Source: Methanobacteriota archaeon
GTDB taxonomy: Archaea; Halobacteriota; Methanosarcinia; Methanosarcinales; Methanosarcinaceae
DNA: 32,407 nt
Direction of reading: 5' to 3'
Assembly (NCBI GenBank): GCA_016841625.1
Contig: JAENYU010000035.1
Coordinates: forward strand, 931-33,337
This document shows, in pieces, positions 4,068-26,079 of the stretch. The position numbers and the translations under genes were made by a program. Numbering within the stretch: position 1 is the first letter of the stretch; the number at the start of each line of letters is the position of its first letter. The notes below the pieces were generated by a model. The model did no database searches and was not told where the DNA came from. It was given only the letters and a program-made list of their open reading frames with translations.

Positions 4068-4083
4068 GCTCGCTTGCGAGCGG
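4068..4083. repeat. perfect 16-bp palindrome
   Basis: CGCTCGC-TT-GCGAGCG lies 48 bp after the methyltransferase stop codon. It is followed by CCTTT...AAAGG, a second small inverted repeat. It could form an RNA hairpin near the 3' end of the mtaA transcript or belong to a dispersed repeat. No T-run follows immediately, so a terminator role is uncertain. Confidence 0.5.
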
Positions 4084-4199
4084 CCTTTCCCATGAAAAAG
4101 GCAAAGACACATAAACTAAGAAAAACACCACCTGCGACGTTTATAAGTAAAAGGAAAAAAGAATTATACTGTCAAAACACGTTAAGGATCCTTTAAAAA

Positions 4200-4565: not shown

Positions 4566-4606
4566 TCGAAATTACTGAAATTGGCAACTATATAATTATT
4601 TTCCTT

Positions 4607-5281
4607 TTAAAGAGGGGATGGCACTTCATATTCTTGCAAAAACTCTGAAAGGAGCAGGGGACAGTCCGGAATCTGCTCAGTATCCAGCATAATCAAATTG
4701 AGGTAGTAAGGGCCTCCACCTGTAATTTCTACAGGGGTGGGATCGACGAATTCCATGATCTCAGCAGGATTCTCAAGATAAAAACTCTCAAGATCCGGAT
4801 GGTTAAGATTGTCCTCACAGGGGAGACCTATAGCATGGACTGTGGAATCTAAAAGATCCTCAGTTCCTGCATCCAGAATAAGTCCGAAAAAGGAATAGAC
4901 CCCGTAGGGAAGATCAAGCATGTAATCAGTGCTCACATCAAGCTCGGAGAGTAAAAGGTTCTGGGTATTTTCCCCGTACACCATCAGAAGCAGCACTTTA
5001 TCATTATCCCTATCGCCGGAAAGGAGTTCCTGAACCGTATCCGGCAGGAAAAAACTCCCGAAAATGAAATCGAACTCTTCATAAGCTGAAGACGTAAAAT
5101 CATTTCTGACATACAGCAAGCCGTCTTCGTTCGAAAGAGAATAACTCAAATTACCCTGGAGATCGATTATCGGATACTTCCCTTCAGAAATATCCCTCCA
5201 GAACTTATTGAGAGCTTTGTCTGCTATTCGGGACAACAGGTCGATACATTTCCCAATTCCGATACCGATACCTTCCAGCAC
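4607..5281 (-). CDS. protein of unknown function
   Basis: A 224-residue protein that I do not recognise. It starts at GTG 5281, with GGGGGA about eight bases upstream. It is acidic, has no clear signal peptide or membrane helix, and carries a glycine/isoleucine-rich N-terminus (EGIGIGIGK). It is probably a cytoplasmic globular protein. It is transcribed alone on the minus strand. Two palindromes lie just upstream of the start and may control it (see 5311-5344). No function is offered. Confidence 0.6.
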   Translation of the reverse strand: MLEGIGIGIGKCIDLLSRIADKALNKFWRDISEGKYPIIDLQGNLSYSLSNEDGLLYVRNDFTSSAYEEFDFIFGSFFLPDTVQELLSGDRDNDKVLLLMVYGENTQNLLLSELDVSTDYMLDLPYGVYSFFGLILDAGTEDLLDSTVHAIGLPCEDNLNHPDLESFYLENPAEIMEFVDPTPVEITGGGPYYLNLIMLDTEQIPDCPLLLSEFLQEYEVPSPL

Positions 5282-9373: not shown

Positions 9374-10159
9374 TTATTCGTCCTCGATCACTTCAACAAA
9401 ATTCCTGTCCGAAAGATCCTCTTTTCCCGACCAGAAGATCGACTTGTAGTACTTCCAGACTTTGGGATCGAATTCGAGGATCCCCACATGGATCACAAAT
9501 TCAAGCAGGAACCAGTAGGTAGCTACCAGGTGCCCGATACGGATCAGGCCCAGCGCCGACACGTTCAGGTAAGGCGCAAAGATCCCGGCAATCGCAATGA
9601 CCCACTGAGCTATGGGAAGCCCGAGAAGGGACCAGTTCAGGTTGTAGAGCACGATTCCCGTGGCGGCGATCAGGAGGACTGCAGAGCTTTCGAAGATGAG
9701 CAGGAGCTTGAGCACCGGGTGAAGTTTCGTGACGTAATGTCCCTCCAGCGCATCGTAGACCGTAAATGCCGGATACTTTCCTTTGCCGAAAAAATTGAGT
9801 ATGATGGCTTTCAGGCGTTCGGCATCCTCGGGCCCGAAAATATAGCTTTCGACGAAATGGCCCAGCCTGTTATTCAAGGAGCAGACCTCCCCCCTGCACG
9901 AAAAAATATTATAAGGGGTAAGAATCCAGTTCGCTGCCAGGAAGAAAGGAACTGCAATCATATGCAGGGCGCGGGCTTTATCGAATTCCATAAAGTCCCA
10001 GCCCAGATAAATCTTAAGTCCGGTAACAACCAGGAGCAGCATTGAAAGCAGGTGAATCAGGTGTGTGACCCGCTCCAGCCGCGTATAGCGCTCCACAATC
10101 ATGCTTTCCCCGGGGTTCCCCTGGTTCCCGGAATTTCCTTCCACTTTTCCCCCCACCAT
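9374..10159 (-). CDS. vhxC: cytochrome b subunit of divergent methanophenazine hydrogenase (VhoC/VhtC type)
   Basis: A 261-residue membrane protein with about five helices. It should carry two b hemes and pass electrons from the hydrogenase small subunit to methanophenazine. Likely heme histidines lie in RVTHLIHLL, RALHMI and RIGHLVATYW...EFVIHVGIL, matching VhtC at 14282-15100. It differs from VhtC in having a CRGEVC cysteine pair in the loop after helix 2 and in lacking VhtC's last ~20 residues. The ATG at 10159 is backed by GGAGGTGG, and the stop of the large subunit gene is 17 bp upstream. The name vhx follows the most divergent Methanosarcina GAC operon and is tentative. Confidence 0.85.
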   Translation of the reverse strand: MVGGKVEGNSGNQGNPGESMIVERYTRLERVTHLIHLLSMLLLVVTGLKIYLGWDFMEFDKARALHMIAVPFFLAANWILTPYNIFSCRGEVCSLNNRLGHFVESYIFGPEDAERLKAIILNFFGKGKYPAFTVYDALEGHYVTKLHPVLKLLLIFESSAVLLIAATGIVLYNLNWSLLGLPIAQWVIAIAGIFAPYLNVSALGLIRIGHLVATYWFLLEFVIHVGILEFDPKVWKYYKSIFWSGKEDLSDRNFVEVIEDE

Positions 10160-10176
10160 GTTTCGACCACCTCCTA

Positions 10177-11964
10177 TCAGATCACCCTGACCTGCTCCTT
10201 GCGCCGTCCGGTCAGGTCAACGGTATGGATGGCACAGGCAAGACATGGGTCATAAGAACGAGCCGTGTGAAAGATGCCCAGAGGGTTCGTATAGTCCACG
10301 CCCAGGGCGTTTCCGGCGGCAGAAATCTTTGTCCCCAGCAGGGCTTGCTCCGCAGGTCCCGGGACCCCAGCCGTGTTTCGCGGGGCCAGGTTCCAGGTGC
10401 TCGGGACCACGGCCTGGTAGACCGTGACTTTCGAGTCCGAACCCGTGGATACCCAGTGCCCGAGAGCCCCCCTTGGCGCTTCCCAGAGTCCCATGCCCTC
10501 CGAATCCTTTGCCATGGAGAGATCGGTGGGGACTGCAAAACTGCCGTTAGGATCAAGGTCCACGGTCAGCCATTTAAGGAGCTCGGACGCGACTACCAGG
10601 ATCTCCTGCATCCGGGCAAGCATGCGCAGATAAGTGTTGGGTGCAGGGTAGCCTTTTTCCCGGAACAGGTCCATCAGCCCCATGATAAGGGGGTCTTGCA
10701 TGACGAGCATGCGGGAAAGGGGCCCGACCTCACAGGGAATCCCACCATAATGCGGGGCCTTTACCCAGGAGTAGCGGCTTTCGACCCCCTGGCTATAATC
10801 GATTTCATCGGGGTCCGATACCGGCTGGGTGGTCCCCTCCAGCGGGAGCCTGTCGGACTCGGAGTCAACGTAAAAGGAATGAGAGATGCTTTCTGTAATC
10901 TTTCTGTGGTCGAACCTGCTCAACTTGAGCTTCCCGTCCAGGAAGCCCGAAGGCATGACCCTGGAATCGGGCGGGCTGGTCGGGTCGTAGCCGTCCCCGA
11001 GCTCGGGCTTGAAGAAGACCCCATAAGAAAGGTAACCGATCTTCGAGGGGTCGCTGTAGCCTCCGATCCTGTCCAGCCTCATACTCACAGGAAGCCCCAG
11101 GACTTCCTCCCCTACGAGTTCGGAGCCAAAAGCCGCATAAAGAGGCACATCGCCCCAGCCCGCAGCCCGGGAGAAGTCATATGTGACAAGGGAAGCGTCC
11201 ACCAGTTCCTGCAGCCGGTCAACCACAAAACCCACGGCTTTTTGAGGGGAAGAAGCAAAGTGGGTGTTTTCGACCCAGGTCTCGGGGGAAACTCCCAGGG
11301 CGAAGTTCTCAACAAAATCCATCACCTGCCAGTAATAAGCAGCAAGCTGCCCGATATCTGCGACGGTGGGCCCGTAGGTTACGCCCCCCACATGCGCCAG
11401 AACCGAATGGGGCATCTTTGCCCCTAAAAGAGAAATGGCTTCATGCAGCCGCCGTTTTTCCCCGATCGCAGCCGCATACCCGCTTCCTACGGGGATGTCC
11501 ACGCCGTCGAGCCTGTAGCTGATAGGGGCAAACCTCCCCAGCAGCTCGTTCCAGACGGCATTCCCGGTATCCCCGAAATTTGCAAGAATATCGCGGTAGG
11601 CGGGGTTTGATAAGTCCGTTCCCCAGAGCACATAGACATGGGTCGCATGGCTTGCAATAGTGTTTAAAGCCTGGTGGATGTTGCGCACGACGAGGGCGTC
11701 CTTCGGGACCGCATCCTCAACCCCGAAGAGCTGGTCAAGAGCGTTTGCCGCCGCGAGGGAGTGAGAAGTCGGACAGACCCCGCAGATCCGCTGGGTCAGG
11801 AGAGCCGCATCCCTTGGGTCCTGTTTCTGGAGGAACCGTTCGAACCCCCTGAGCATAAGCCCCATGCTCTGGGCTTCCGTAACCACACCCTCCTCGTTGA
11901 CCTGGGTTGTTATCCTGTAATGCCCTTCAATCCTGGTAAGCTGGTCAACCGTAACCTCAACCAT
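10177..11964 (-). CDS. vhxA: [NiFe] hydrogenase large subunit, divergent copy (VhoA/VhtA type)
   Basis: A 595-residue catalytic subunit that splits H2 at the Ni-Fe centre on the outer face of the membrane. The nickel ligands are complete: [10 protein letters not shown] near residues 59-68 and DPCLACAIH near the end (C574, C577, H580). The 15 residues after H580 (TVDLTGRRKEQVRVI) are the expected propeptide, removed by a maturation protease once nickel is in place. It has no signal peptide and should be exported bound to the twin-arginine small subunit. It starts directly after the small subunit stop (13206-11965). It is clearly less similar to the two other large subunits in this window than they are to each other. 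Confidence 0.95.
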   Translation of the reverse strand: MVEVTVDQLTRIEGHYRITTQVNEEGVVTEAQSMGLMLRGFERFLQKQDPRDAALLTQRICGVCPTSHSLAAANALDQLFGVEDAVPKDALVVRNIHQALNTIASHATHVYVLWGTDLSNPAYRDILANFGDTGNAVWNELLGRFAPISYRLDGVDIPVGSGYAAAIGEKRRLHEAISLLGAKMPHSVLAHVGGVTYGPTVADIGQLAAYYWQVMDFVENFALGVSPETWVENTHFASSPQKAVGFVVDRLQELVDASLVTYDFSRAAGWGDVPLYAAFGSELVGEEVLGLPVSMRLDRIGGYSDPSKIGYLSYGVFFKPELGDGYDPTSPPDSRVMPSGFLDGKLKLSRFDHRKITESISHSFYVDSESDRLPLEGTTQPVSDPDEIDYSQGVESRYSWVKAPHYGGIPCEVGPLSRMLVMQDPLIMGLMDLFREKGYPAPNTYLRMLARMQEILVVASELLKWLTVDLDPNGSFAVPTDLSMAKDSEGMGLWEAPRGALGHWVSTGSDSKVTVYQAVVPSTWNLAPRNTAGVPGPAEQALLGTKISAAGNALGVDYTNPLGIFHTARSYDPCLACAIHTVDLTGRRKEQVRVI

Positions 11965-13206
11965 TTACTGATCCCCTCCTTCATCTTTGCCCGCTTTTTT
12001 ACCCGGCGCTTCCTCTTGTTTTTCCTCTTCAGGCCCTTCCTCCTGTTCTTTCTCTTCAGGCCCTTCTTTCACGACAGTTCTCCGGATGGCATGGGCTCCT
12101 ACCGCAAGCAGGGAAGCCCCGATAGCCACCTTTGCAACGGTATCGATATTCGTGCCGGCAATCCCCACGTCTTCAATCTCCTGGAAGAAAGGACGTGAAC
12201 TGTCAGGAAAACCGGGGGAAACGCAGGAAATGCAGGGTGAACCGGACTGCGGGCAGAAGCTGTGGTAGCCGTTCCAGCGGCGTGTGGCACAGTCCGCATG
12301 GGTGTAAGGCGCCTTGCACCCCAGCTTCCAGAGGCATTTTTCCCCGCTGACCACGGTGTCGAACTCTCCCTTATCATAGGACCCTCTTCTGGGACAGTTG
12401 TCGTGGATAACGTGGTCCGGAGGGAAAAAGACTTTCGGACGCAGCCATTCGTCCAGCACGGCCGGAAGGTCGTCGGGAACTTTGATTTTCCCCAGCACCA
12501 CTGCAGCCAGGGTAAGGAGCATCCAGTCGGGGTGAGGCGGGCAGCCGTTGATATTGATGACGGGCTTTTCGACCCCCAGTTCCCTGAGAATCCCTTTCTC
12601 CCCGTCCTCCATGGTAAAAGCAACTCCCCGGAAGTCCATCAGGTCCTTAATCTCGCTGTCTGCCGAATTAACTCCCCCGTTCGTTGCACACTGCCCCACA
12701 GCCACAATGAGAGCAGAGTTTTCAGCAGCCCTCCGGAAAATATCCTTGTATGTCTTCCCACCGAGCATGATGTACTTGCCAGTGCCTGCCGGCCCGTTAG
12801 CAATCGCACCTTCGGCAACCAGGATGTACCCTTTTTCCTCAATCACTTCCTCAAAAAGAAGCTCAGAGTTGAGTTCGGAAGTATTTGCCAGTTTTCCGTC
12901 AACGTAAATACCCTGCTGGCCGAGCAGGACTTCGTGGTACGCAAGCCGCAGGTTCAGGCGCTCCAATGCCTGGAGCAGGTCAGGCTCGCCCCCATTTAAC
13001 AGGGATTCGGAACAGCCAGTACACTCCCCTCCGTGAACCCAGACAATTCTGGTTTCTGCGAATTCAAGGGCTTTTACAATATCACTCCGATAATTTTGCA
13101 AAAACAAAGACGTACCCAGAGCTCCTACAGCTCTAAGGAACGTACGCCGGTCCATCTTCATGAAATCAAGTTGTTTGAATCGGTCAAAGGAACCTTTTCC
13201 ACCCAT
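11965..13206 (-). CDS. vhxG: [NiFe] hydrogenase small subunit, divergent copy, acidic C-terminal tail
   Basis: A 413-residue electron-transfer subunit. I chose ATG 13206 because GGAGGGG lies just upstream. A longer frame from 13278 would put odd hydrophobic residues ahead of the export signal. A twin-arginine signal (MDRRTFLRAVGALG, arginines 20-21) is followed by the proximal cluster ligands (ECTGC, C62/C65; GQCATNGG; NGCPPHP). The distal and medial ligands follow ([31 protein letters not shown]). A membrane helix (IDTVAKVAIGASLLAVGAHA) then leads to a 37-residue Glu/Lys/Pro tail (EGPEEKEQE repeated) that the vht copy lacks. GQCATNGG and NINGC replace GTCAAYGG and NIPGC of the other two copies. 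Confidence 0.93.
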   Translation of the reverse strand: MGGKGSFDRFKQLDFMKMDRRTFLRAVGALGTSLFLQNYRSDIVKALEFAETRIVWVHGGECTGCSESLLNGGEPDLLQALERLNLRLAYHEVLLGQQGIYVDGKLANTSELNSELLFEEVIEEKGYILVAEGAIANGPAGTGKYIMLGGKTYKDIFRRAAENSALIVAVGQCATNGGVNSADSEIKDLMDFRGVAFTMEDGEKGILRELGVEKPVININGCPPHPDWMLLTLAAVVLGKIKVPDDLPAVLDEWLRPKVFFPPDHVIHDNCPRRGSYDKGEFDTVVSGEKCLWKLGCKAPYTHADCATRRWNGYHSFCPQSGSPCISCVSPGFPDSSRPFFQEIEDVGIAGTNIDTVAKVAIGASLLAVGAHAIRRTVVKEGPEEKEQEEGPEEEKQEEAPGKKAGKDEGGDQ

Positions 13207-13606
13207 TCCACCCCTCCATGCAGAACAGAATATTTTCCAAAAGACACTGACAATAATATTACTAATACATAAACCCAATCAATAAAAAAGTTACTCTAAG
13301 AAAGAACATTTTCACAAATAAAAAAATATGACCTCAAATATCCATAGAAAGGATATCATATTGCAGATTATACCTCTTTTTCACAATTTGCTGAATATTA
13401 TATCCACGAGCACGCACCATATTTTCAGGATATCAGGCGAATTCAAGCCTTAAGGAAAAATTGCTTAAAAGGGAGAGGGAAATGAAAAAAATGTTAATTA
13501 TTTTTGTAAGTATAGAATTAATTGTTAACCCTGGAAGAGAAAGTTCAGTTAGAATTTATTAATATAAAAGCTTAAAAATGTAGAAAAGAGGGGGTAAAAA
13601 AAGAGG
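13207..13606. other. vhx upstream region, no gene seen
   Basis: About 400 bp of A+T-rich DNA between the divergent G gene and the repeats after vhtD. It contains four GGATAT/ATATCC half-sites (see 13338-13433) and several T-runs but no convincing reading frame. The promoter of the divergent operon must be here. I cannot pick its TATA box with confidence. Confidence 0.6.
13338..13433. promoter_or_regulatory. four GGATAT/ATATCC half-sites upstream of vhxG
   Basis: ATATCC at 13338-13343 faces GGATAT at 13351-13356 across 7 bp. A second pair is ATATCC at 13400-13405 and GGATAT at 13428-13433. The segment 13351-13366 is also nearly complementary to 13391-13405. They lie 130-230 bp before the vhxG start. 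A regulator site is possible but no binding factor is known. Confidence 0.35.
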
Positions 13607-13679: not shown

Positions 13680-14165
13680 TTAAAGCAGGTCAGAAACTTC
13701 TTCCCTTATCAATCGGACTGCCTCGTTTACGGCTTCAAGCACTTCAGGGCTCATTTCCGTTGTAATTTCCGTAGCCTGCTTTCCGATTTCTATGCCGAAG
13801 ACTACGATTTCCGGGAGTTCCTGCACCTGATCCCCGATCTTCAGCACAGTGGATATGGTCATGTCGTGTACTGAAATGATGTCGTAGGGTGCAGTGCCTG
13901 CAATCAGGTCCAGGCCGTCAAGCCGGTGGATGGTACCTGCCCGGGCGCCGGTCAGGATTGCGTCAACAATTATAACCTTTCGGGCGCCATCAAGCAGGTT
14001 TAGAAGGTCCAGTCCGCAAACGCCGGCATCTACTACTTCGAGACCGTCAAGCCCTTCAAGTTCCGTTTTTTTAAGGGCTTCAACAACCTTCAGGCCAATG
14101 CCGTCATCTCCCATGAGAGGGCTTCCGCAGCCCAGGATTCGGACCGGAGCATGTAATATAGACAT
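13680..14165 (-). CDS. vhtD: hydrogenase maturation endopeptidase (HybD/HycI family)
   Basis: A 161-residue protease that clips the C-terminal extension from the nickel-loaded large subunit. The family start motif (GCGSPLMGDDGIGLKVVEAL, residues 12-31) contains the first metal-binding acidic residue. VDAGVCGLDLL and VIIVDAILTG follow, then HDMTISTVL with the nickel-sensing histidine. The length is normal. It is the last gene of the vht operon and the only such protease in the window, so it could serve all three large subunits, whose cleavage sites (H-T-[IV]-DLTG) are alike. A 116-bp gap separates it from vhtC. Confidence 0.93.
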   Translation of the reverse strand: MSILHAPVRILGCGSPLMGDDGIGLKVVEALKKTELEGLDGLEVVDAGVCGLDLLNLLDGARKVIIVDAILTGARAGTIHRLDGLDLIAGTAPYDIISVHDMTISTVLKIGDQVQELPEIVVFGIEIGKQATEITTEMSPEVLEAVNEAVRLIREEVSDLL

Positions 14166-14281: not shown

Positions 14282-15100
14282 CTACTCTTTTACAACTTCC
14301 AGGATTTTTTCAGGTGAATCTTGCCAGACAAGGTCTCTGTCAGGCACGTTGTTCCCCGGTTCATGGCCTATGATATCAACGAAGTGCTTATCTGCAAGGT
14401 TTTCCTTTCCCGACCAGAAGATTGCCTTGTAGTACTTCCAGACATGGGGGTCGAACTCCAGAATCCCGATATGCACAACCAGTTCAAAGACGAACCAGTA
14501 GGTCATGAGAAGGTGAACCACCCTCATTAACTGCAGTGAAGACATATCGAAAGCAGGTGCGATCAGAGCCCCTGCCGAAAGGATCCAGGAACCCAGGGGA
14601 AGCCCGAAGATAGCCCAGTCAAGCCTGTATAAGACAATACCCGAAATTGCAATGAACAGTGTAGCAGTACCTTCCAGCACGATAAGGATCTTCATCAAGG
14701 GGTGAAGTTTGGTCTTGTAGTGCCCTTCAACCTCATCATAGATGGTGAATGCCGGGTAGTCACCCTTCCCGAAGAAATTTAACACTATTGCTTTCAGACG
14801 CGCTGCATCTTCAGGGCCGAAGATATACGTATCCATGAAATGTTCCATTTTTGCCTGAACTCCGCCCCCACCTGCAGAGAAAATGTTGTAGGGGATCAGA
14901 ATCCAGTTCACCGCAAGGAGAACCGGAACCATGATCATGTGGAGAGCTCTGGCGTTATGGAAGCTCATGAAGTCCCAGCCCAGATAGATCTTTAACCCGG
15001 TCAGGATCAGCACTACCATTGCTAAGGCATGGGCGGCGTGAGCCACCCTGTCGAGTACCGTGTAGCGCTCAACAACCATCGGGTTGTTTTTGCCTTTCAT
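14282..15100 (-). CDS. vhtC: cytochrome b subunit of methanophenazine-reducing hydrogenase
   Basis: A 272-residue integral membrane protein with about five hydrophobic spans. It takes electrons from the small subunit and reduces methanophenazine, releasing the scalar part of the proton gradient. Candidate heme histidines are H21 or H24 (RVAHAAHAL), H54 (RALHM), and the pair in [10 protein letters not shown]...[19 protein letters not shown] lies just upstream of ATG 15100. The gene begins 16 bp after vhtA. The tail (about residues 245-272) is polar and absent from the divergent copy at 9374-10159. Confidence 0.93.
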
Positions 15101-15115
15101 GAAAGATCATCTCCT

Positions 15116-16903
15116 TTATACGAGCCTTAAGGTTTTAGGAGCGTTTTTCCCGGTAAGGTCAATGGTGTGAACCGCACAGGCAACGCACGGGTCATAGGAC
15201 CTGCCGATGTGAAGAATGTTAACAGGGTTAGAGTAATCGATACCAAGTGCGTTTTCCACCGCGTTGATTTTTGACCCGATCATGGCCTGCTCAAGCGGGC
15301 CGGGAACACCTGCACCGTCTCTCGGGGAAAGGTTCCAGGTACTCGGGACCACGGGCTGGTAGCGGACAACCTTTGAGTTGCTGTCTGTAGAGACCCAGTG
15401 TCCCAGAGCCCCTCTCGGAGCTTCCCAGAGCCCCATACCTTCGGAGTCCTTTGCCATGGAAAGGTCGGTGTGTACGGAAATCTTGCCGTTCGGGTCATAG
15501 TCAACAGTTACCCACTTAAGAAGCTCATTTGCGATAATGGTAGTTTCCTGGATGCGGGCCACCATCCTGGTGTAGGTGTTAGCCGGAGAGTATCCGTTAT
15601 CCTTGAAGGCCTGAGCCAGGCCGGTCACCAGAGGCTCTTTCATAGCGAGCAGGCGGGAGAGAGGACCGACTTCGCAGGGTATGCCTTCATATCTCGGGGC
15701 CTTACCCCAGGTGTACCTGCCCTCGGAGTCGCCGTCAAAGCGGATCTCGTCCGGGTCTGAGATCGGGTTTGTCTCACCCTTCGAGGGGTGAAGTTCCCCG
15801 GAATCTTCATAGAAAGAGTGCGAAACGCTTTCGGTGATCTTGCTGGCATCGAAGTTTTTGTACTCAAGCTTGCCAGTTACGATCCCGGAGGTCTGGAAAC
15901 GGGCTCTTGCCGGGCTGTTCGGGTCATACCCGTCCCCGTTTTCAGGTTTGTAGAAAACCCCGTAAGACAGGAAGTTGATCATCGAAGGGTCGCTGTATCC
16001 GCCGTGCCTGTCATGTTTCAGGCTGGCCGGAAGCCCGAGGAGGGTTTCTCCCACAAGTTCGGAACCGAAGGCGGCATAGAATTCCGCATCACCCCAGCCG
16101 GCTTCCCTGCTAAAGTTGTTGGAAGAAGCGGTGCTGTCCACGAGCCCCTTGAGGTGCTCGAGTACGAAGTTCACGGCTTTCTGGGGGGAGCTTGCCTTAT
16201 AGGTGTTTTCAATCCAGGCCTCGAAGGGGACTCTTAAGGTATATTTGGAGACAAAGTCCATGACCTGAAGGTAATAAGATGAAAGTTTGCCGATGTCGGC
16301 GATGTTTGGCTTGTAGGTGTACCCCCCCGGATAGGATGTGACCTGATGGGGCATTTTCCCGCCGATGACTGCGATGGCTTCCTGCAAGCGCTTCTTTTCA
16401 GGGATTGCTGCAAGGTAGGAACTACCTGGCGGGATGGCATTCCCGTCGATCCTGTAGCTGATCGGGGCAAACCTGCCCACAAGTTCCTTCCAGACAGCGC
16501 TTCCGGTTTCTCCGAGAGGAGTCAGGACATCACGGTAGGCGGGGTTTGCAAGGTCGGGCCCCCAGAGGACATAAATGTGGGTTGCATGGCTTGCAATAGT
16601 GTTTAACGCCTGGTTGATGTTCCTTGCCACAAGGGCATCCTTGGGCACGCTTTCGGCCACCCCGAAGAGCTGGTCAAGGGCATTTGCGGAAGCAAGAGAG
16701 TGGGAAGTAGGACAGACTCCACAGATCCTCTGAGTCAGAAGTGCTGCATCCCTGGGGTCCTGGTTCTGGAGCATGCGTTCAAAGCCCCTGAACATAAGGC
16801 AGGAACTCCGGGCATCGGTGATTACACCGTCGCCGTTGACTTCCGTGGACAGGCGGAGGTGACCTTCAATCCTTGTTAAGGGATCGACTGTTACGTTTAC
16901 CAT
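15116..16903 (-). CDS. vhtA: [NiFe] hydrogenase large subunit of the vht operon
   Basis: A 595-residue catalytic subunit. Nickel ligands are C61 and C64 ([10 protein letters not shown]) and C573 and C576 with H579 (DPCVACAVH). The remaining [16 protein letters not shown] is the propeptide cut by VhtD. It uses H2 to reduce the Fe-S chain of VhtG, outside the cytoplasmic membrane. Its GGAGATGAT ribosome binding site is embedded in the last codons of vhtG (Gly-Asp-Asp-stop). The first ~60 bp including this site are identical to the start of the second large subunit gene at 20476, a sign of recent duplication or gene conversion. Confidence 0.96.
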
Positions 16904-16905
16904 TT

Positions 16906-18060
16906 TTAATCATCTCCTTTCATTCTGCGCACTGCATGTACACCTGCAGCAAGCACGGATGCACCGACGGCGGCTTTAGAAACGGTGTCGATGTTTGCCC
17001 CGAGGAACACGCCCTTGTCCTCAGCTTCAACAAACAGGGGCCTTGCAGAATCCGGGAACCCGGGCTCCACACAGGCGATGCAGGGGGATCCTGCCTGGGT
17101 GCACATGTTTACGGAACCGTTCCAGCGGCGCAGGGCACAGTCCGAGTGGGTGTAAGGAGCTTTGCAGCCTAACTTCCAGAGGCACTTTTCCCCTCCGATT
17201 TCCGTGTCGAATTCTCCACGGTCGTAGTAGCCGCGCCGGGGACAGTTTTCATGCACCGTGTGGTCTTCAGGGAAGAAAAGCCTGGGTCTTCCGTACCCGT
17301 CCAGAGCTGCATCGAGATCTTCGGGAATCCTGAGCTTTCCGAGGATTACCGCCCCGAGGGTCAGGAGGATCCAGTCAGGGTGTGCGGGACAGCCAGGGAT
17401 ATTGATTACAGGCTTGCGGATGCCAAGTTCCTGGACCATGCCTTTGGAGCTGTCTTCTTTTGTGAAAGCCACTCCCCTGTAATCGGTAAGCTCGGCAACG
17501 GCGCTGTCTGCGGAGTTGATTCCTCCGTATGCTGCACAGGTGCCCACTGCAAGAATAGCGTTAGCGTTCTTTGCCGCTTTGGAAAAGAGGTCCTTGAAGG
17601 TCCTGTTCCCGATCACGCAGTAGCGGCCGGAACCGTTGGGCCCGTTTGCGATTGCGCCTTCAACGATCAGGATGTAGTTGCCTTCTTCGATCAGTTCGTC
17701 AACAAGGATTTCGGAGTTCAGCTCGGAGCTGTTTGCAGGCTTTCCATCTACGAACAGTCCCTGCTGGGCAAGGAGAGTCTCGTGGTAAGCAAGATTAACG
17801 TTAAGCTTGGTAATCGCCTGGACGAGGTCCGGGTTGCCACCGTTTAAGATGGACTCGGAACAGCCCGTGCATTCGGCGCCATGCAGCCAGATAAGCTTTG
17901 TTTCTGCAAATTCGAGAGCACTTACAATCTCCGTTTTATAGGTACCGAGAAATGCCGTTGCACCGAGTGCGCCTACGGCTTTTAAAAAGGTACGCCGATC
18001 CATTTTTAAAAAGTCCATACTATCCAGTGTATGAACCAAATTCATTTTTCCAATGTCCAT
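16906..18060 (-). CDS. vhtG: [NiFe] hydrogenase small subunit of the vht operon
   Basis: A 384-residue Fe-S subunit linking the Ni-Fe site to cytochrome b. The twin-arginine signal [14 protein letters not shown] (arginines 22-23) exports the G-A pair. Cluster ligands: C64/C67 (ECTGC), GTCAAYGG and NIPGCPAHP for the proximal cluster; [24 protein letters not shown] and [13 protein letters not shown] for the distal and medial clusters. A C-terminal helix (residues 357-377, [20 protein letters not shown]) anchors it in the membrane, where it meets VhtC. It is the first gene of vhtGACD. ATG 18060 was chosen; an ATG at 18045 is possible. Confidence 0.95.
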
Positions 18061-18133
18061 ATTCTACCACATCTTGTTTTTTATACCCAAAATATATGTC
18101 CGAAAGGAAAATGGTTCTTAAATTTCCACCATA

Positions 18134-18143
18134 ATTATATAAG
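18134..18143 (-). promoter_or_regulatory. TATA box candidate for vhtGACD
   Basis: On the minus strand CTTATATAAT lies about 75 bp before the vhtG start. Transcription would begin near 18113, leaving a leader of about 50 nt. A second A+T-rich candidate lies at 18150-18157. Confidence 0.4.
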
Positions 18144-18679
18144 CCTTCATATAAATATACAGATAATATTTTGAATGAGTAAATCATATTTAAAGTTTTT
18201 TACATGGACAAAATAAATATATTACTAAACAAGATGAAAGTTGTAAGTATTCTTTAGAAATTATAAGAGAATGTTGGATTTAATAATGAGCATCAATGGG
18301 CATCATCATACATAGGAAACCATAAATGACCTGTAAGGGATAATCTAAACAGTTTAAATAATCATGATAGATTTACACTGGAACACATGACAAAAATAGA
18401 GCTAAAATGACGAATAAAATATCAATAATTAAACATATGGTATTAAAAAATTAGATATAAGTATTAAAAAATACACAAATAAAATCAGGCACGTATTATG
18501 GCCATTAAAAGGATTCAATTCTGATTTCGCACAAAAAAATCAGGGAAAAATCCCCGGAAAAATTAAGGCGAAAAAAAATAAATAAAGAGGAATAAGTTTT
18601 CGAGCAAATGAGGAAAAAGTTACTTATATTTCTAACATACGCTCTTCAAATTCCTCTTACACACCCTTCAAATTCTCCT
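18144..18679. other. gene-free A+T-rich gap between G-A operon and vhtGACD
   Basis: About 540 bp where the complete operon's layout would predict a cytochrome b gene. Six-frame reading shows only short A+T-rich frames and no trace of the VhtC motifs ([14 protein letters not shown]). It contains a terminator-like element at 18533-18554. Confidence 0.65.
18533..18554 (-). terminator. terminator after the cytochrome-less G-A operon
   Basis: On the minus strand GGGA-TTTT-TCCC forms a small stem, followed by TGATTTTTTTG. It lies about 130 bp after the large subunit stop, where transcription of the G-A pair would end. Confidence 0.5.
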
Positions 18680-20476
18680 TCATACTATTCTTAAAATGCC
18701 CGGAGCATTTTTCCCTGTAAGGTCAATGGTATGGACAGCACATGCAATACAGGGATCGTACGACCTTCCGACGTGCAGGATGTTGACCGGGTTGGAGTAA
18801 TCGACACCTAGAGAGTTTTCCACAGCGTTAATCTTTATTCCGATCAAAGCCTGTTCCGCAGGACCGGGAGTTCCTGCGCTGTCTCTCGGGGAGAAGTTCC
18901 AGGTACTCGGGACCACGGGCTGGTAGCTTACAACTTTAGAGTTACTGTCTGTGGAGACCCAGTGCCCGAGAGCCCCTCTCGGAGCTTCCCAGAGCCCCAT
19001 ACCCTGGGAGTCTTTTGCCATGGAAAGGTCGGTATGCACCGCAATCTTCCCGTTCGGGTCGTAGTCCTCAGTTACCCACTTCAAGAGTTCGTTTGCAATA
19101 ATTGCGGTTTCCTGGATGCGAGCAATCATCCTGGTGTAGGTGTTGGCAGGGGAGTAACCGTTCTCCTTGAAGGTCCGAGCAAGTCCTGTCACCAGGGGCT
19201 CTTTCATAGCAAACAGGCGGGAGAGAGGTCCAACTTCACAGGGTATCCCGTCATACCTCGGGGCCTTTGCCCAGGTATAACGGCTGTCAGGTCCCCTGTC
19301 ATAGCGGATTTCTGCCGGATCACCAATCGGGTTAGTTTCGCCTTCCGAGGGGTGGAGCTCTTCCGAGCCTTCATAGAAGGAATGGGCAATGCTTTCAGTG
19401 ATTTTGCTGGCATCGAAGTTTTTGTATTCGAGATTGCCTGTTACGACCCCGGAGGTCTGGAAACGGTCGCCTGCAGGGCTGTTAGGATCATACCCGTCCC
19501 CGTTTTCAGGCCTGTAGAAAGCCCCGTAGGCCAGGAAGTTGATCTTTGAGGGGTCGCCGTATCCGCCATGTCTATCGTGCTTAAGGCTGGCAGGAAGCCC
19601 GAGAAGCTTTTCCCCTATGAGTTCCGAGCCGAAGGCTGCGTAGAATTCCATGTCACCCCAGCCAGCTTCCCTGGCGAAGTTGTTGCTGTTGGAACCGGAT
19701 GTGCTGTTGTCTACGAGCCCCTGGAGGTGCTCGAGCAGGAAGTTTACGGCTTTCTGTGGAGAACTTGCCCTGTACGTGTTTTCAATCCAGGTATCAAAGG
19801 GGACCCTTAAGGTGTATTTGGAGACAAAGTCCATAACCTGGAAGTAATAAGAGGAAAGTTTGCCAATATCCGCGGAGTTCGGCCGATATGTGCATCCACC
19901 CGGATAGGATGTGACTTGGTGGGGCATCTTCCCGCCGATGACTGCAATGGCTTCATGCAGGCGCTTCTTTTCGGGAATGGCTGCGAGGTAGGAACTACCT
20001 GCAGGGACAGGAGTTCCACCAATACTGTAGCTTATAGGGGCAAACCTGCCCACCAGTTCCTTCCAGACAGAGGTTCCGGTTTCCCCGAGAGGGGCAAGGA
20101 CATCGCGGTATGCAGGATTTGCGAGGTCAGGTCCCCAGAGCACATAGATGTGGGTTGCATGGCTTGCAATGGTGTTCAGGGCCTGGTTGATGTTCCTTGC
20201 TACAAGGGCATCTTTGGGTACACTTTCGGCCACCCCGAAGAGCTGGTCAAGGGCATTTGCGGCTGCCAGGGAGTGGGAAGTCGGACAGACCCCGCAGATC
20301 CTCTGGGTCAGGAGGGCTGCGTCCCTGGGGTCCTGGTTCTGGAGGATACGCTCAAAGCCCCGGAAAAGCAAACATGAACTCCGGGCATCGGTGATTACGC
20401 CTTCCCCATTGATTTCGGTGGACAGGCGGAGGTGACCTTCAATCCTTGTTAAGGGATCGACTGTTACGTTTACCAT
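18680..20476 (-). CDS. vhoA: [NiFe] hydrogenase large subunit of the cytochrome-less G-A pair
   Basis: A 598-residue subunit very similar to VhtA throughout, with three extra residues in a Ser/Asn-rich stretch ([10 protein letters not shown]). All nickel ligands are kept: [10 protein letters not shown] near residues 59-68 and DPCIACAVH near the end (C576, C579, H582). The propeptide [16 protein letters not shown] is like that of VhtA, so VhtD could process it. It should therefore be catalytically competent. No cytochrome b or protease gene follows. The ribosome binding site and start are identical to those of vhtA. The symbol is tentative: vho is used in Methanosarcina mazei for a GAC operon. 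Confidence 0.93.
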
Positions 20477-20478: not shown

Positions 20479-21663
20479 TTAATCATCTCCTCTTCTGTAG
20501 TAAGAGTCCCTACGGGAACCATCGTCATAAGAGTCTACATCACTGGAATCCCCATCATCACCTCTTCTGCGATCGGATTTTTCACCATCGGATTCTCCGC
20601 CATCGGATTCTCCGCCATCGGAACTTCCCCCGCCCTGCATGTAAAAAGGCCTTGCAGAGTCAGGGAATCCGGGTTCCACACATGCTATGCACGGAGAGCC
20701 TGCCTGGATACACATACTGGTCCCACCGTTCCATTTGCGGATCGAACAATCCGCATTTGCATGTTTACCTTTGCACCCGAGTTTGAAAAGGCACTTGTGC
20801 CCACCAATTTCGGTATCGAATTCCTCATCCTCATAGTAATCGTGGCGAGGACATTCGTCATGGACATCTTCATCGAAATAGGCTTTCGGCCTCCCGTAAC
20901 TGTCCAAGACAGAGGGGAGATCCCCCGGGATTCTGATTTTTCCGAGGACAACTGCGCTGAGCGTCAATAACATCCAATCCGGATGTGAAGGACAGCCGGG
21001 AATGTTGATAACTGGCTTGTTTATGCCAAGTTCCTGGAGCATGCCCCCATAACTGTTATTCTTTGTAAAAGCCACTCCCCTGTAATCCGTAAGCTCCGCA
21101 ATCGCACTGCTTGCGGAATTGATGCCGCCATAAGCCGCACAGGTCCCGACTGCAAGGATTGCGGTTGCATTCCCGGCAGCTTTTGCAAAGAGTTCCTTGA
21201 AAGTCCGGTTCCCGACCATGAAGAAGCGCCCGGAACCCTCCGGCCCGTTCGGGATTGCTCCCTCAACGACCAGGATGTAGTTCCCTTCTGCGATAAGTTC
21301 GTCAACAAGAATCTCAGAATTGAGTTCGGACGTGTTTGCAGGCTTCCCGTCCACAAAGATGCCCTGCCCCGCGAGGAGGGTCTCATGATAGGCAAGCTTT
21401 GCGTTAAGCGCCTGGAGAGCCACGAGCACATCAGGGTCGCCTCCGTTTAAGAGGGACTCGGTACAGCCCGTGCATTCGGCCCCGTGCAGCCAGAGAATTT
21501 TTGTCTCTGATAAGGCAAGGGCACTGACAAGCTCTGTCTTGTAAGTACCTAAAAACACAGATGCCCCAAGCAGGCCTGCTGTTTTCAAGAACGTTCGCCG
21601 GTCCATCGTTAAAAAATCGGATTTTTCCGTTTTTTCATGTACATTAGAAGTGTTTTTGTTCAT
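20479..21663 (-). CDS. vhoG: [NiFe] hydrogenase small subunit without membrane anchor
   Basis: A 394-residue Fe-S subunit with twin-arginine signal [14 protein letters not shown] (arginines 22-23) and all cluster ligands: C64/C67 (ECTGC), [42 protein letters not shown] and [13 protein letters not shown]. Up to SARPFYMQ it follows VhtG. Then the linker and C-terminal helix are replaced by a 51-residue hydrophilic tail rich in Ser, Asp, Gly and Arg ([12 protein letters not shown] to SYYRRGDD). It should be exported with its large subunit but not anchored. I chose ATG 21663, with GTGATC just upstream. A GTG at 21672 is the alternative. It is divergent from the hyp operon. Confidence 0.93.
20586..20622. 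repeat. 15-bp tandem repeat in the vhoG tail
   Basis: GGATTCTCCGCCATC occurs twice in tandem, flanked by degenerate copies (GGATTTTTCACCATC and GGAACTTCC). On the coding strand it gives repeated Asp-Gly-Gly-Glu-Ser. The 15-bp unit preserves the frame. Confidence 0.85.
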
Positions 21664-21765
21664 AGAGATCACGAAAACGTTTTTTGTAGAATTTATCGGA
21701 AGCAGTCATTCGAAAAAGAATAAAGCCGGAATTAAGCTGGCTCGAATTTAGAGCAATTTCATAAA

Positions 21766-21773
21766 TTTATATA
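21766..21773 (-). promoter_or_regulatory. TATA box candidate for vhoGA
   Basis: TATATAAA on the minus strand, about 105 bp before the vhoG ATG, predicting a leader of about 80 nt. Confidence 0.4.
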
Positions 21774-22212
21774 GTAATCGGAAATATAATTACATGACAG
21801 ATAAATTTATTTAAATACTTTTGGAATGAAGCAGGACAGAGATAAAACAATTAAAAAATATTTAATCAAAAAGAGAAAACAAAAAGGTTATAAAAGAGAA
21901 CTATATAGATGCAAAAATAATTTTGGATAAATATTTGTTTTAAAAAAACAGTGTGAAAGGCTTGAAGACGGCTTTGCAACATGCCATTCCGCCTCCCGGC
22001 AAACAGTAAACTGCAGAGAAACAGCTACATTTTGAGAGATAAACGGATATAAAGTACAGAGAATACATAATATAGGGAGAAACAGGGAAAATTTCAGTCC
22101 GGAGATACTTATCGGCACTTACTGAAAAAAGAACCTGTACTCACTAAATATACAGGCATCCGGCAAATTCCAAGTTCCGGAAGAGATTCACACAGACTGT
22201 TTCACCCATGAA

Positions 22213-22290
22213 TACTCCTCAAAAATGCTTCTCAAAAATACTCCTCAAAAATACTCCTCAAAAATACACCTCAAAAATACTTCTCACCTG
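22213..22290. repeat. 13-bp tandem repeat (TACTCCTCAAAAA) x6 upstream of hypC
   Basis: Six contiguous 13-bp units, the last truncated in similarity, ending about 50 bp before hypC. On the minus strand each best copy reads TTTTTGAGGAGTA and so contains a ribosome-binding-like GAGGAG. Confidence 0.9.
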
Positions 22291-22342
22291 AAATTTGGCT
22301 TTTAAACATTACAAACTTTGAAAGAAAAACAGCAGAGGTAAC

Positions 22343-22624
22343 ATGTGTATAGCTATTCCTGGAAGAGTTAAGGCGATCGTCAATGAAAACACCGCCACCG
22401 TTGATATGGGGGGGGTCCGCAGAGACGTGAACATGGACCTGCTGGGAGGGGCAAGTGAAGCCCTGCTCGGGAAATACGTGCTGGTCCATGTGGGCTATGC
22501 TATATCGGAAATCTCGGAAGAAGAAGGGGAAGAAACCATGCGCCTCCTGAAACTGATGGCAGGGCTGGATGACGGAGAAAACGACTCTTTTGAAGCCTTC
22601 CCCGGAAACAGGGACACTGATTGA
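22343..22624 (+). CDS. hypC: hydrogenase maturation chaperone HypC
   Basis: A 93-residue chaperone. With HypD it holds the iron during assembly of the Fe(CN)2CO group and then delivers it to the large subunit precursor. The N-terminus is MCIAIPGRV, with the essential Cys2. VDMGGVRRDVNMDLL and VLVHVGYAI are the usual HypC strands. AGAGGT precedes the ATG. It is the first gene of hypCDABE on the plus strand, divergent from the hydrogenase operons and one base from the start of hypD. Confidence 0.96.
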   Translation: MCIAIPGRVKAIVNENTATVDMGGVRRDVNMDLLGGASEALLGKYVLVHVGYAISEISEEEGEETMRLLKLMAGLDDGENDSFEAFPGNRDTD

Positions 22625-22625
22625 A

Positions 22626-23744
22626 ATGGCTCCCGAAAAAATCCCTTCGAAACAGGGGATTCCCGAACTTGAAAAGAAGCTCCTGGAAAGGATCGGGGCC
22701 TCGGCCAGGAAGCTTCGCATCATGCACGTCTGCGGGACCCATGAGCGGACAATAGCAAAATACGGGCTCCGAAGCGTGCTTCCGGAAGAAATAGAAGTAA
22801 TCAGCGGCCCGGGCTGCCCTGTCTGCGTCACCCCCGAAGCAGACATTGACATTGCAATAGCCCTTGCAAAGAGCAGGGCAAGCGTGGTCACCTTCGGGGA
22901 CATGATGCGGGTCCCGGGGTCCACGGGCAGCCTGCTGGACGCAAAAGCCGAAGGTGCGGACGTGAAGATGGTCTACAGCATCGACGATGCCGTTGCCCTT
23001 GCAGAAAAAAAGCCCGAGCAAGAAGTGGTCTTCTTCGGAATAGGCTTCGAGACCACAGTCCCTGCCAATGCGGCAACCCTCCTTCGGGGCGTACCTGAAA
23101 ATTTCAGCCTCCTCGTTTCCCAGAAGCGGACCCCTCCAGCAATAGGACTGCTTGCGAAGGACACCGAAGTGGACGCTTTTATTGCCCCCGGGCATGTGGC
23201 AACCATCATCGGGACAAAGCCTTTCGAACCCCTTGCCTACCAGGGTTTCCCGGTAGTTGTGAGCGGGTTTGAAGCGTACGATGTCCTCCTGGGGATATCC
23301 CTCCTCCTGACGCAGCTTGGAGAAGGCGCCGCAAGGGTTGATAACGGGTACCCGAGGGTTGTGAAGCCTGAAGGGAACCTGATTGCTCTGAAAATGATGG
23401 AAGAGGTCTTCGAGACCGCGGATTCCGAATGGAGGGGCATCGGGAATATAGAACGTTCCGGACTTGTCCTGAAAAAGGAGTTCGAAGAGCAGGACGCAGC
23501 AAAGAGACATGAAGATTTCTACGCGAAAGCCCTCGAAGAAATCAGGAAGAAAGCAAAAGGCAGGGATAAGAAGCGCTGTATCTGCGCTGCCATCCTTACC
23601 GGAAAGGCAAACCCTTCCCGGTGCCCGAGCTTTGGAAAAGGCTGCACCCCAAAGACCCCTGCAGGTCCCTGCATGGTCAGCCAGGAAGGCATGTGCTACA
23701 ACTGGTTCAAGTATGCCAGGGCAGGAGGCAGCGGGCATGCATGA
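22626..23744 (+). CDS. hypD: hydrogenase maturation protein HypD
   Basis: A 372-residue scaffold for the iron centre. MHVCGTHE, ISGPGCPVCVTP and the FGDMMRVPGS/SLLDAKAEGADV segments are the conserved HypD motifs that bind iron. The C-terminal cysteines (NPSRCPSFGKGC, GPCMVSQEGMC) hold a [4Fe-4S] cluster. The frame is open from 22569, but that start lies inside hypC. ATG 22626, immediately after the hypC stop, gives the normal length and N-terminus. The end overlaps hypA by 8 bp, suggesting translational coupling. Confidence 0.95.
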   Translation: MAPEKIPSKQGIPELEKKLLERIGASARKLRIMHVCGTHERTIAKYGLRSVLPEEIEVISGPGCPVCVTPEADIDIAIALAKSRASVVTFGDMMRVPGSTGSLLDAKAEGADVKMVYSIDDAVALAEKKPEQEVVFFGIGFETTVPANAATLLRGVPENFSLLVSQKRTPPAIGLLAKDTEVDAFIAPGHVATIIGTKPFEPLAYQGFPVVVSGFEAYDVLLGISLLLTQLGEGAARVDNGYPRVVKPEGNLIALKMMEEVFETADSEWRGIGNIERSGLVLKKEFEEQDAAKRHEDFYAKALEEIRKKAKGRDKKRCICAAILTGKANPSRCPSFGKGCTPKTPAGPCMVSQEGMCYNWFKYARAGGSGHA

Positions 23745-24225
23745 GTACTCCATCGCCTGCGAGATTTTCGAGCAGGTGATCGCTACCGCCAAAGCTCACA
23801 GGGCATCCGAAGTCAAATCCCTGACCCTTGTGATGGGAAGGCTGACCCACACGAACCCTGAACAACTCAAGTTCTGTTTTGAGGTCCTGGCAGAAGGCAG
23901 CATTGCCGAAGGTGCGGAGTTTATCGTCGAAATGCTTTCCCCATCCGTGGAATGCGAATGCGGGTACCAGGGTAGGGCCGAACCCCCCGGACACCCGACC
24001 GACCAGTCGGGAGAAGATATAGGTGAAGACAGGAGTGAAAACGGAAACGAAAGCGGGGCCAGAAACAGAAACGAAAGTGGAGCAGAAGCCGAACTTCACC
24101 AGAGCGAACTTCTGGAATACGTCGCAGCCCTTAACTGTCCCACCTGTGGGAAGGCTGCCCGGATCACGGGAGGACAGGAACTCATCATTAAGACGATAGA
24201 TATAGAAACTGAAGATGAAAGCTAA
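23737..24225 (+). CDS. hypA: nickel insertion protein HypA with enlarged zinc-domain loop
   Basis: A 162-residue metallochaperone delivering nickel to the hydrogenase with HypB. The N-terminus MHEYSIA contains the Ni-binding His2, and GRLTHTNPEQLKFCFEVL is typical. The zinc domain has one half as CECG (about residue 69) and the other as CPTCG (about residue 129). Between them lie about 55 residues, including a Glu/Asn/Gly/Arg stretch with repeated NESGA, longer than the usual HypA loop. ATG 23737 sits inside the end of hypD and has AGGAGG upstream. A longer frame from 23509 lies within hypD and is not used. Confidence 0.93.
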   Translation: MHEYSIACEIFEQVIATAKAHRASEVKSLTLVMGRLTHTNPEQLKFCFEVLAEGSIAEGAEFIVEMLSPSVECECGYQGRAEPPGHPTDQSGEDIGEDRSENGNESGARNRNESGAEAELHQSELLEYVAALNCPTCGKAARITGGQELIIKTIDIETEDES

Positions 24226-24285
24226 AGCTGAATGCCGGATTATTCAAAGAAATTATCAAAAAACAATTTCCAGAAGTGATTTTTC

Positions 24286-24945
24286 ATGCTAATGCACGTA
24301 ATAAATGTGGGACACGATGTCTTCAAGGCAAACGACAAGATTGCCGACAAAAACCGGAAAAACCTTGACAGGCACGGCGTCCTTGCGGTGAACATCATGG
24401 GAGCTATCGGTTCCGGGAAGACCACCCTGATAGAGGAAGCTATCAAAGCCCTGAAAGACAAATACAGGATCGCGGTGATCGCAGGGGATGTGATCGCAGA
24501 GATGGACGCCTCCCGTTTCAGGAAACTCGATGTGCCTACTGTCCCTGCAAATACCGGGAAGGAATGCCACCTTGACGCAAAACTTGTAGAAAAAGCCCTG
24601 AAAGAAATCAACCTCAAAAACACCGACCTCCTTATCATCGAAAACGTGGGCAACCTGATCTGCCCCGTGGACTTCAAGCTCGGGGAACACCTGAGGATAG
24701 TCGCCGTAAGCGTGACCGAGGGAGACGACATCATCCTGAAGCACCCCATGATCTTCAAGACCGCAGAACTTGCAGTCATAAACAAGGTGGACCTTGCTGC
24801 AGCCGTGGATGTCGACCCGGAAAAGATGGTATCCGACATCCAGGCCCTGAACCCCGAAGTGCCCATTCTTCTGACCTCGAAGCATTCCAGGGAAAGCCTT
24901 GACGTGTGGGTAGGCGCCATCGAGGCAGGGCTCGAAAGCAGATAA
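24286..24945 (+). CDS. hypB: hydrogenase nickel incorporation GTPase HypB
   Basis: A 219-residue SIMIBI-class GTPase that powers nickel insertion together with HypA. The P-loop is GAIGSGKTT (residues 39-47). Metal-site and switch residues lie in NTGKECHLDA, then ENVGNLICP and the guanine motif NKVDLA. There is no N-terminal histidine-rich nickel store. ATG 24286 is used; ATG 24292 (MHVINVG) is equally possible. It is the fourth gene of the hyp operon, 60 bp after hypA. Confidence 0.95.
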   Translation: MLMHVINVGHDVFKANDKIADKNRKNLDRHGVLAVNIMGAIGSGKTTLIEEAIKALKDKYRIAVIAGDVIAEMDASRFRKLDVPTVPANTGKECHLDAKLVEKALKEINLKNTDLLIIENVGNLICPVDFKLGEHLRIVAVSVTEGDDIILKHPMIFKTAELAVINKVDLAAAVDVDPEKMVSDIQALNPEVPILLTSKHSRESLDVWVGAIEAGLESR

Positions 24946-25026
24946 AAGAAGAGCCGGCAAGGGAAGGAAAGGAAAGAGGTAAAAAGAGCTGAAAAAAGGT
25001 TGAAGAAGGTTGAGGAAGAGGCCAGT

Positions 25027-26079
25027 ATGAAGTCCACTACGATTACCCTGGAACACGGGGCAGGCGGAGAAGTGATGCAGGCCCTGATCGGCGAGATCAT
25101 CCTGAAAAACTTCAATAACAAGAGCGCAGGCTCGGTAGGGCTCGAGAGCCTGGACGACGGCTCTACAATCAAACTTGAAAATTTTGATTCGAATTCCGAA
25201 CTGGTCCTGACCACGGACAGCCATGTGATAACCCCTGCCTTTTTCCCTGACACGAACATAGGCAGGCTGGCCGTTGCAGGCACCGTAAACGACCTGACTA
25301 TGATGGGGGCAAAACCCCTTGCCCTGACCTGTGCGGTCATCGTCCCCGAAGGTTTTCCCATGGACGACTTCGAAACAATCATCAAGACCATGGGAGACAC
25401 GGCAGCCGAAGCTGACGTCCCGATCATCACGGGCGACACCAAGACCGTGGAAAAGACTGCTCTTGATTCGATCATCCTGAACACCACAGGGCTCGGGATA
25501 ACCGTAGCCGAAAAACCCGTAAGGGACTCCGGGCTCTCCCCGGGAGACAAAATCCTGGTCACAGGCAGCATAGGCGACCACGGGATCTCCCTCATGGCCC
25601 ACAGGGAAGGTTTTGACTTCGATACCGACCTGGTCTCGGACTCCGCACCCCTCTGGAAGCTCATAAAGCCCCTCCTTGAGCTCAAAACCCCCGAAGGAGC
25701 AGCGGTCATCACCGCCATGAAAGACCCTACCCGCGGAGGGCTTGCAAACGCCCTCAATGAGATGGCGCAAAAGAGTGGGGCCGGAATCCTCCTGGAAGAA
25801 GAAGACATCCCCTTCAAGCCCGCGGTCTCCGCAGCCTGCGAGATGCTGGGCCTCGACCCCCTGGAAGTCGCAAATGAAGGAAAAGCCGTAATAGGGATAA
25901 AAGCCGGCTTCGAAGAAAAAGTGCTGGAAATCCTGAAGAAACACCCCTACGGGAAAGATGCGGCTGTCATAGGGACAGTCACCTCCGAAAACAAAGGAGA
26001 AGTAGTCCTCAGGAACCGCTTTGGCGGCATGCGCTACGTGGATGTGCCTGCAGGAGACCCGATTCCGCGCGTGTGCTAA
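25027..26079 (+). CDS. hypE: hydrogenase maturation protein HypE (cyanide ligand synthesis)
   Basis: A 350-residue AIR-synthase-like enzyme. It dehydrates a carbamoyl group on its C-terminal cysteine to a thiocyanate, which becomes the cyanide ligand of the active-site iron. The C-terminus is DPIPRVC, the essential PRxC end. LEHGAGGEVMQ at the start and ITGDTKTVEK and KDPTRGGLANALNEM within are family motifs. ATG 25027 fits the usual N-terminus. A TTG at 25000 would add nine charged residues. No hypF, which supplies the carbamoyl group, lies in the window. Confidence 0.95.
   Translation: MKSTTITLEHGAGGEVMQALIGEIILKNFNNKSAGSVGLESLDDGSTIKLENFDSNSELVLTTDSHVITPAFFPDTNIGRLAVAGTVNDLTMMGAKPLALTCAVIVPEGFPMDDFETIIKTMGDTAAEADVPIITGDTKTVEKTALDSIILNTTGLGITVAEKPVRDSGLSPGDKILVTGSIGDHGISLMAHREGFDFDTDLVSDSAPLWKLIKPLLELKTPEGAAVITAMKDPTRGGLANALNEMAQKSGAGILLEEEDIPFKPAVSAACEMLGLDPLEVANEGKAVIGIKAGFEEKVLEILKKHPYGKDAAVIGTVTSENKGEVVLRNRFGGMRYVDVPAGDPIPRVC

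Follow-up and report, generated by a model that had tools for sequence, protein, structure and literature searches.

Gene content and organisation of the locus

The window, i.e. the whole stretch of 32,407 nucleotides that was analysed, carries three Vht-type hydrogenase clusters in series on the minus strand: a pair of genes whose small subunit ends in a long hydrophilic tail (hereafter the tailed pair), vhtGACD (18060-13680) and vhxGAC (13278-9374). The features of this region, in order of position, are as follows.

9374-13278, minus strand: vhxGAC, a divergent third copy that is anchored and has a cytochrome b of its own
13680-14165, minus strand: vhtD, maturation protease, the sole one close to either pair
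14282-15100, minus strand: vhtC, cytochrome b subunit
15116-16903, minus strand: vhtA, large subunit
16906-18060, minus strand: vhtG, anchored small subunit
18061-18679, minus strand: intergenic region upstream of vhtG, which aligns with the vhtG upstream region of genomes G001, G002 and G096
18680-20476, minus strand: vhtA2, partner [NiFe] large subunit, 87% identical to VhtA
20479-21663, minus strand: tailed small subunit of VhtG type, 394 amino acids, with a Tat signal and three Fe-S clusters and with the C-terminal helix absent
20482-20634, minus strand: tail of 51 residues (344-394), rich in Ser, Asp, Gly and Arg, predicted to be disordered
20698-20892, minus strand: codons 258-322 around the distal and medial clusters, holding most of the changes specific to the tailed clade
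21664-22342, no strand: divergent intergenic region separating the tailed pair from hypC
22343-26079, plus strand: hypCDABE maturation genes, divergent from the tailed pair

The single protease VhtD presumably serves both the tailed and the anchored pairs. There was no tatA, tatC or additional protease gene adjoining the tailed pair among the open reading frames of the window, nor was there a cytochrome c gene beside it within the window. A blastn comparison of the region between vhtA2 and vhtG with the window returned nothing, and a remnant of vhtC or vhtD at this point was therefore rejected. Separately, the VhxG proteins were observed to carry a long Glu/Lys/Pro-rich extension after the helix (11965-12075, minus strand, in the window), which varies in length and contains repeats, such as KEPEEAPG in G002 (vhx small subunits L049, L050 and L062).

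The tailed small subunit

Re-examination of the sequence reproduced the reading frame, the Tat motif (DRRTFLK) and the 51-residue tail at 20482-20634 that had been reported in the preliminary description. Both hydrogenase small-subunit domains (PF01058 and PF14720) were matched, and the core of the protein shares 72% identity with VhtG from the same genome. The earlier statement that all Fe-S ligands are present was likewise confirmed by the invariant Cys/His columns of an alignment of 38 sequences (C64, C67, C175, C224, H268, C271, C291, C297, C306, C318, C325 and C328), in which the ligands of all three clusters are retained. The tail begins after FPDSARPFY and consists chiefly of Gly, Ser, Asp, Glu and Arg; its proposed substitution for the helix that ends VhtG and the divergent copy agrees with the best 19-residue C-terminal hydropathy, which is -1.04 in the tailed protein versus +1.34 in VhtG and +1.61 in VhxG. 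AlphaFold models, which were of modest quality (mean pLDDT 57-61, and poor resolution of the half that binds the clusters), left residues 334-394 of the tailed protein without structure and with no helix (pLDDT about 26-33, staying near 30 up to residue 385) and placed a helix at residues 365-383 of VhtG, likewise at low confidence. The VhtG helix is weakly hydrophobic (Kyte-Doolittle mean 1.34, with an unfavourable octanol-scale sum), and its designation as a membrane anchor rests on homology; the VhoG helix is taken as transmembrane in PMC12667266. The tailed protein is predicted, with high confidence, to be exported with no C-terminal helix holding it, and the original reading of an exported but unanchored subunit is well supported by the sequence.

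Translation of the tail DNA in every frame revealed no significant likeness to the VhtG helix, by which a simple frameshift of helix-coding DNA was rejected. The terminal tail codons (20482-20490, GGAGATGAT) resemble a Shine-Dalgarno sequence belonging to the downstream gene, a possible reason for the retention of a C-terminal GDD or DD.

Distribution, age and selection

Whole-genome searches recovered full-length tailed orthologues in G002 (JAENZL010000002.1, 83% identity) and G003 (DUKH01000184.1, 85%), both congeneric with the window genome G000, and in G096 from another genus (82% across residues 1-370). The tail-bearing form is therefore present in four species in two genera, with all four tails alike in composition. 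An assembly or sequencing error, which had been named beforehand as an alternative source of the tail, is excluded by the comparable tails in the three further species. The four tailed proteins formed a single clade with support of 100/100, on a long stem of 0.24-0.31 changes per site, located beside anchored VhtG and nested inside the Vht clade, in trees built without FohB and Desulfovibrio sequences. Divergence between the genera at synonymous sites was close for the tailed genes (dS 0.81-1.05) and VhtG (1.08-1.14), which indicates a vertically inherited form as old as the split of the genera, and a recent horizontal transfer between genus g1, to which the window genome belongs, and G096 was rejected on the similarity of these distances. 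The order hyp, tailed pair, vht, vhx is identical in G000, G002 and G096, and hypCDABE is divergent from the tailed pair in these three genomes and in G003. One half of the hypC-vhtG stretch of G001 could be aligned with the sequence preceding the tailed pair, and the other half with that preceding vhtG, indicating that the tailed pair was probably lost in this genome.

The core of the tailed protein is under strong purifying selection (dN/dS 0.06-0.12), compared with 0.4-0.6 in the tail. These values bear on the possibility that the pair is a silent or decaying duplicate with no physiological role. Such a duplicate would be in keeping with the absence of the pair from G001 at an apparently empty site, with its presence in one of about 30 genomes of genus g13, and with the inactive vhx and fre hydrogenase copies of M. 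barkeri, some Vht-family copies (vhx) in that species being reported as unable to yield active enzyme (PMC6030560). However, the core dN/dS is too low for a pseudogene, and the frames are intact in four species at synonymous distances of 0.3-1.05, such that decay of the pair appears highly improbable.

The large subunits evolve differently from the small ones. Gene-conversion tracts between vhtA and vhtA2 were identified at loci L048 and L049 (G096 and G002): in G096 the large subunits share 95% identity and codons 200-300 carry no synonymous difference, and in G002 the tract without synonymous difference lies at codons 50-100. Between the tailed and the anchored small subunit of a genome, 66-69% of synonymous sites are different. 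Judging from these patterns, gene conversion seems to homogenise the catalytic large subunits, the two small subunits remaining distinct, with specialisation confined to the small subunit.

Association between the C-terminal helix and vhtC

Across the family, a vhtC-type gene was located within 2.5 kb of 55 of the 57 anchored copies and of none of the 13 unanchored copies, counting those copies with enough downstream sequence and bearing in mind that the sequences are related, and the events therefore not independent. Most unanchored proteins (10/14) are blunt, ending some 16-22 residues past the last cluster, and belong to genera g6, g12 and g2 (loci L083-L085, L087-L091, L097 and L101). The blunt operons in g6 and g12 have the composition vhtG-vhtA-vhtD, and there was no vhtC anywhere in the blunt-form genomes of g6, g12 and g2. 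All four tailed genomes carry vhtC as well. A single origin of the tailed and blunt forms was rejected (AU p 0.004, three changes), albeit with caution given the long branches present, and as the two do not form one clade, the anchor appears to have been lost more than once.

Two further loci were observed in the course of this comparison. At L103 (G081:C1:833000-843000), vhtC is split into two fragments approximately 1.3 kb apart, beside an intact vhtD and vhxGAC, with a full vht copy elsewhere in the same genome. At L091 (G025:C5:390660-391673), the match to a vht small subunit contains one in-frame TAG, which may reflect pyrrolysine, a frame error or a wrong start.

Remodelling of the electron-exit surface

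Conservation was assessed over 112 core positions, those at which 95% or more of 55 anchored small subunits agree. Eleven of these positions are altered in all four tailed proteins, and nine of the eleven fall within residues 258-322, a clustering with a permutation P of 0.001. The changes include N270E (next to ligand H268), R274H, G275D/E, G280D/E, P300K and Y301H/R, and a two-residue deletion lies close to the tailed-clade changes at the distal and medial clusters. The net charge of residues 260-284 is -5 to -9 in the tailed proteins versus -3 to +2 in 34 other sequences. In group 1 membrane-bound hydrogenases the distal-cluster side faces cytochrome b, and an altered surface at this position fits a change of partner. 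In the blunt unanchored forms the distal-cluster surface is not acidic, and an acidic docking patch common to all unanchored forms was accordingly rejected; a single docking rule does not cover all of them.

These observations allow the original interpretations to be weighed. Of the three suggestions, which included H2 cycling away from the membrane, the one in which the enzyme works with another electron acceptor is favoured by the change in the distal-cluster surface and by the way in which helix loss tracks the absence of an adjacent vhtC. The competing suggestion that it borrows VhtC would have the tailed dimer serve as a second input module by docking on the cytochrome b encoded in the adjoining operon, with the helix dispensable. 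This would be compatible with the presence of vhtC in 4/4 tailed genomes, with the adjacency of the tailed and vht genes, and with the similarity of the large subunits maintained through gene conversion. It is nevertheless disfavoured, since docking-side residues that are fixed in 55 anchored relatives are altered, none of the 13 unanchored copies lies beside vhtC, and species with only blunt forms have no vhtC at all, and we regard it as unlikely.

Attachment by other means was also considered, whereby the protein would be exported and then tethered by an uncleaved Tat signal helix, the loss of the C-terminal helix being of little effect. The N-terminal hydrophobic segment is retained (Kyte-Doolittle 0.94-1.12), and an A-x-A cleavage site (SALA) is evident in G000 only and not in the other three tailed proteins, as such tethering would allow. 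However, small subunits of hydrogenases generally lose their Tat signal peptide, and tethering of this kind would leave both the clustered surface change and the correlation with vhtC without explanation. Removal of the signal peptide is also assumed in PMC6181927, and tethering by the signal helix is judged to be a very slight prospect.

Multihaem cytochromes c as candidate partners

Gene neighbourhoods elsewhere in the family hint at electron exchange with a multihaem cytochrome c, with no such gene beside the tailed pair itself. In G005, a contig of 4.6 kb holds a blunt vhtGA, two tatA genes and the gene for a 10-haem cytochrome c. In G057 and G042 (genus g10), a second vhtGA without VhtC has tatA upstream and, downstream and facing it, a multihaem cytochrome c with a PGF-CTERM-like end; the small subunits of these pairs keep the helix, on a Ser/Asn/Gly-rich linker (L064, L066, L134 and L135). 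Relatives of the G057/G042 cytochrome are present in G000, G002 and G003, and in a non-exhaustive listing of cytochromes c there were none in G001, the sole member of genus g1 without the pair, and none in the tailed genome G096.

All four tailed genomes encode Rnf and an MmcA-like cytochrome, the G000 copy of which matches TIGR04314. Purified MmcA reduces a methanophenazine analogue and covers the range from -100 to -450 mV (PMC11024163), which is compatible with H2. Many genomes without an unanchored hydrogenase also hold MmcA and Rnf, and given that these are common in the family and that no cytochrome gene adjoins the tailed pair, a cytochrome c partner is something that we infer. The pattern as a whole favours such a partner for the tailed pair.

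An additional observation concerns an 8-9-haem cytochrome c that has an in-frame TAG at the same place, in the context [KRWDYSI]-[RK]-TAG-Y, in three g1 and two g10 genomes (L127 (G000:C50) 3549-5054, minus strand; L128 3939-5321, plus; L129 4179-5729, plus; L132 1662-3041, minus; L133 1588-3036, plus). Haem motifs and homology continue past the TAG, and the relative at L131 has a sense codon at that place. As PylS is encoded in all five genomes, this is a candidate pyrrolysine-containing multihaem cytochrome.

The tatA genes adjoining the VhtC-less pairs of G005, G057 and G042 also recall the MIC core, and raise the prospect of a surface or secreted hydrogenase akin to FohAB, mainly producing H2 from outside electrons (metallic iron, minerals or partner cells), with the tail serving for wall attachment or adhesion. 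FohB, too, swaps the helix for a hydrophilic tail after a conserved tyrosine (PMC12667266). Against such a role, tatA, tatC and an extra protease gene are absent next to the tailed pair, the four tails contain no N-X-S/T sequon, by which an N-glycosylated tail of FohB type was rejected, and the tailed protein is of Vht lineage while the MIC hydrogenase lies outside known groups (PMC6181927). A FohAB-like function is consequently considered quite unlikely.

Proposed function of the tailed hydrogenase

The reading preferred here, held with moderate confidence, is that of an exported Vht-type hydrogenase freed from VhtC, with a multihaem c-type cytochrome as its probable partner. The tailed small subunit and VhtA2 would form a second [NiFe] hydrogenase of the Vht lineage, a heterodimer that is already folded when the Tat system exports it and that does not assemble with the cytochrome b VhtC, the loss of the helix and the remodelled distal-cluster surface together releasing it. 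The enzyme would remain between the membrane and the S-layer, either held by its acidic disordered tail or just trapped there. Electron exchange, probably in the direction of H2 oxidation, would be with a further redox protein outside the cytoplasm, for which a multihaem c-type cytochrome such as MmcA is the likeliest candidate. The conservation of the tailed form and the independent losses of the anchor suggest that electrons are handed to a partner other than the membrane cytochrome. More tentatively, the Methanosarcinaceae may repeatedly have made Vht into a free enzyme, outside the cytoplasm, that connects to multihaem cytochromes c at the surface, some perhaps containing pyrrolysine, giving either extracellular electron transfer linked to H2 or a path from H2 to methanophenazine that bypasses VhtC.

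Conservation in four species, the independent anchor losses and the multihaem cytochrome genes beside VhtC-less pairs all extend beyond the preliminary description. Vht recaptures H2 in H2 cycling and is an essential enzyme in M. barkeri (PMC6030560). If the proposal is true, an unanchored form alongside the anchored one would constitute a second door for H2 electrons, in or out, possibly in the form of the multihaem cytochromes of extracellular electron transfer. The association of the helix with the cytochrome b gene also provides a sequence rule separating VhtC-bound from VhtC-free Vht enzymes, which are now filed together. Combined with the independent losses, this family-wide association puts the question within direct reach of genetic tests.

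Comparison with known systems

The tailed protein resembles the Vho/Vht enzymes, the methanophenazine-reducing hydrogenases of group 1k in the HydDB scheme, in lineage, Tat motif, cluster ligands, G-A gene order and divergent hyp operon. It differs in the altered distal-cluster surface and in lacking a protease gene of its own, along with two defining features of Vht, namely the hydrophobic C-terminal helix and a cytochrome b gene (VhtC) in the same operon. Among solved structures, the best matches were the periplasmic [NiFe] and [NiFeSe] hydrogenases of Desulfovibrio (PDB 2wpn, 3ze6 and 1frv), which are soluble and, as the tailed protein appears to be by sequence, exported and unanchored, and which work with the multihaem cytochrome c3. 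The tailed form is similar to these enzymes in its logic. However, the Desulfovibrio enzymes end bluntly past the last cluster, where the tailed protein has its tail, and the high identity of the latter to VhtG makes a shared lineage with them unlikely.

Vht-type subunits without a cytochrome b, as in the tailed pair, also occur in the vhtGAD operons of g6 and g12 and in Methanosalsum zhilinae, for which a C-less operon vhtGADF is listed (PMC3017947, hydrogenase gene table). The small subunits of g6 and g12 are helix-less as well, but blunt and with no long tail, the loss being independent of that in the tailed form, and unlike the tailed pair their operons have their own vhtD and no anchored Vht in the same genome.

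The MIC hydrogenase FohAB of Methanococcus and Methanobacterium is likewise a Tat-exported [NiFe] dimer with a hydrophilic tail in place of the helix (PMC12667266), but it represents a separate lineage (PMC6181927). N-glycosylation sequons are present in the FohB tail, and the island encodes TatA, TatC, a protease and a carbonic anhydrase-like protein, in contrast to the tailed pair with no tat or protease neighbours. A position outside the classical groups is a trait of FohAB, whereas the tailed protein falls inside the Vht clade, in a tree that does not include FohB. No description of a tailed Vht form was found in the open-access papers that were searched. The replacement of the helix by a hydrophilic tail is already published for FohB (PMC12667266), and the tailed form within the Vht lineage is the new part.
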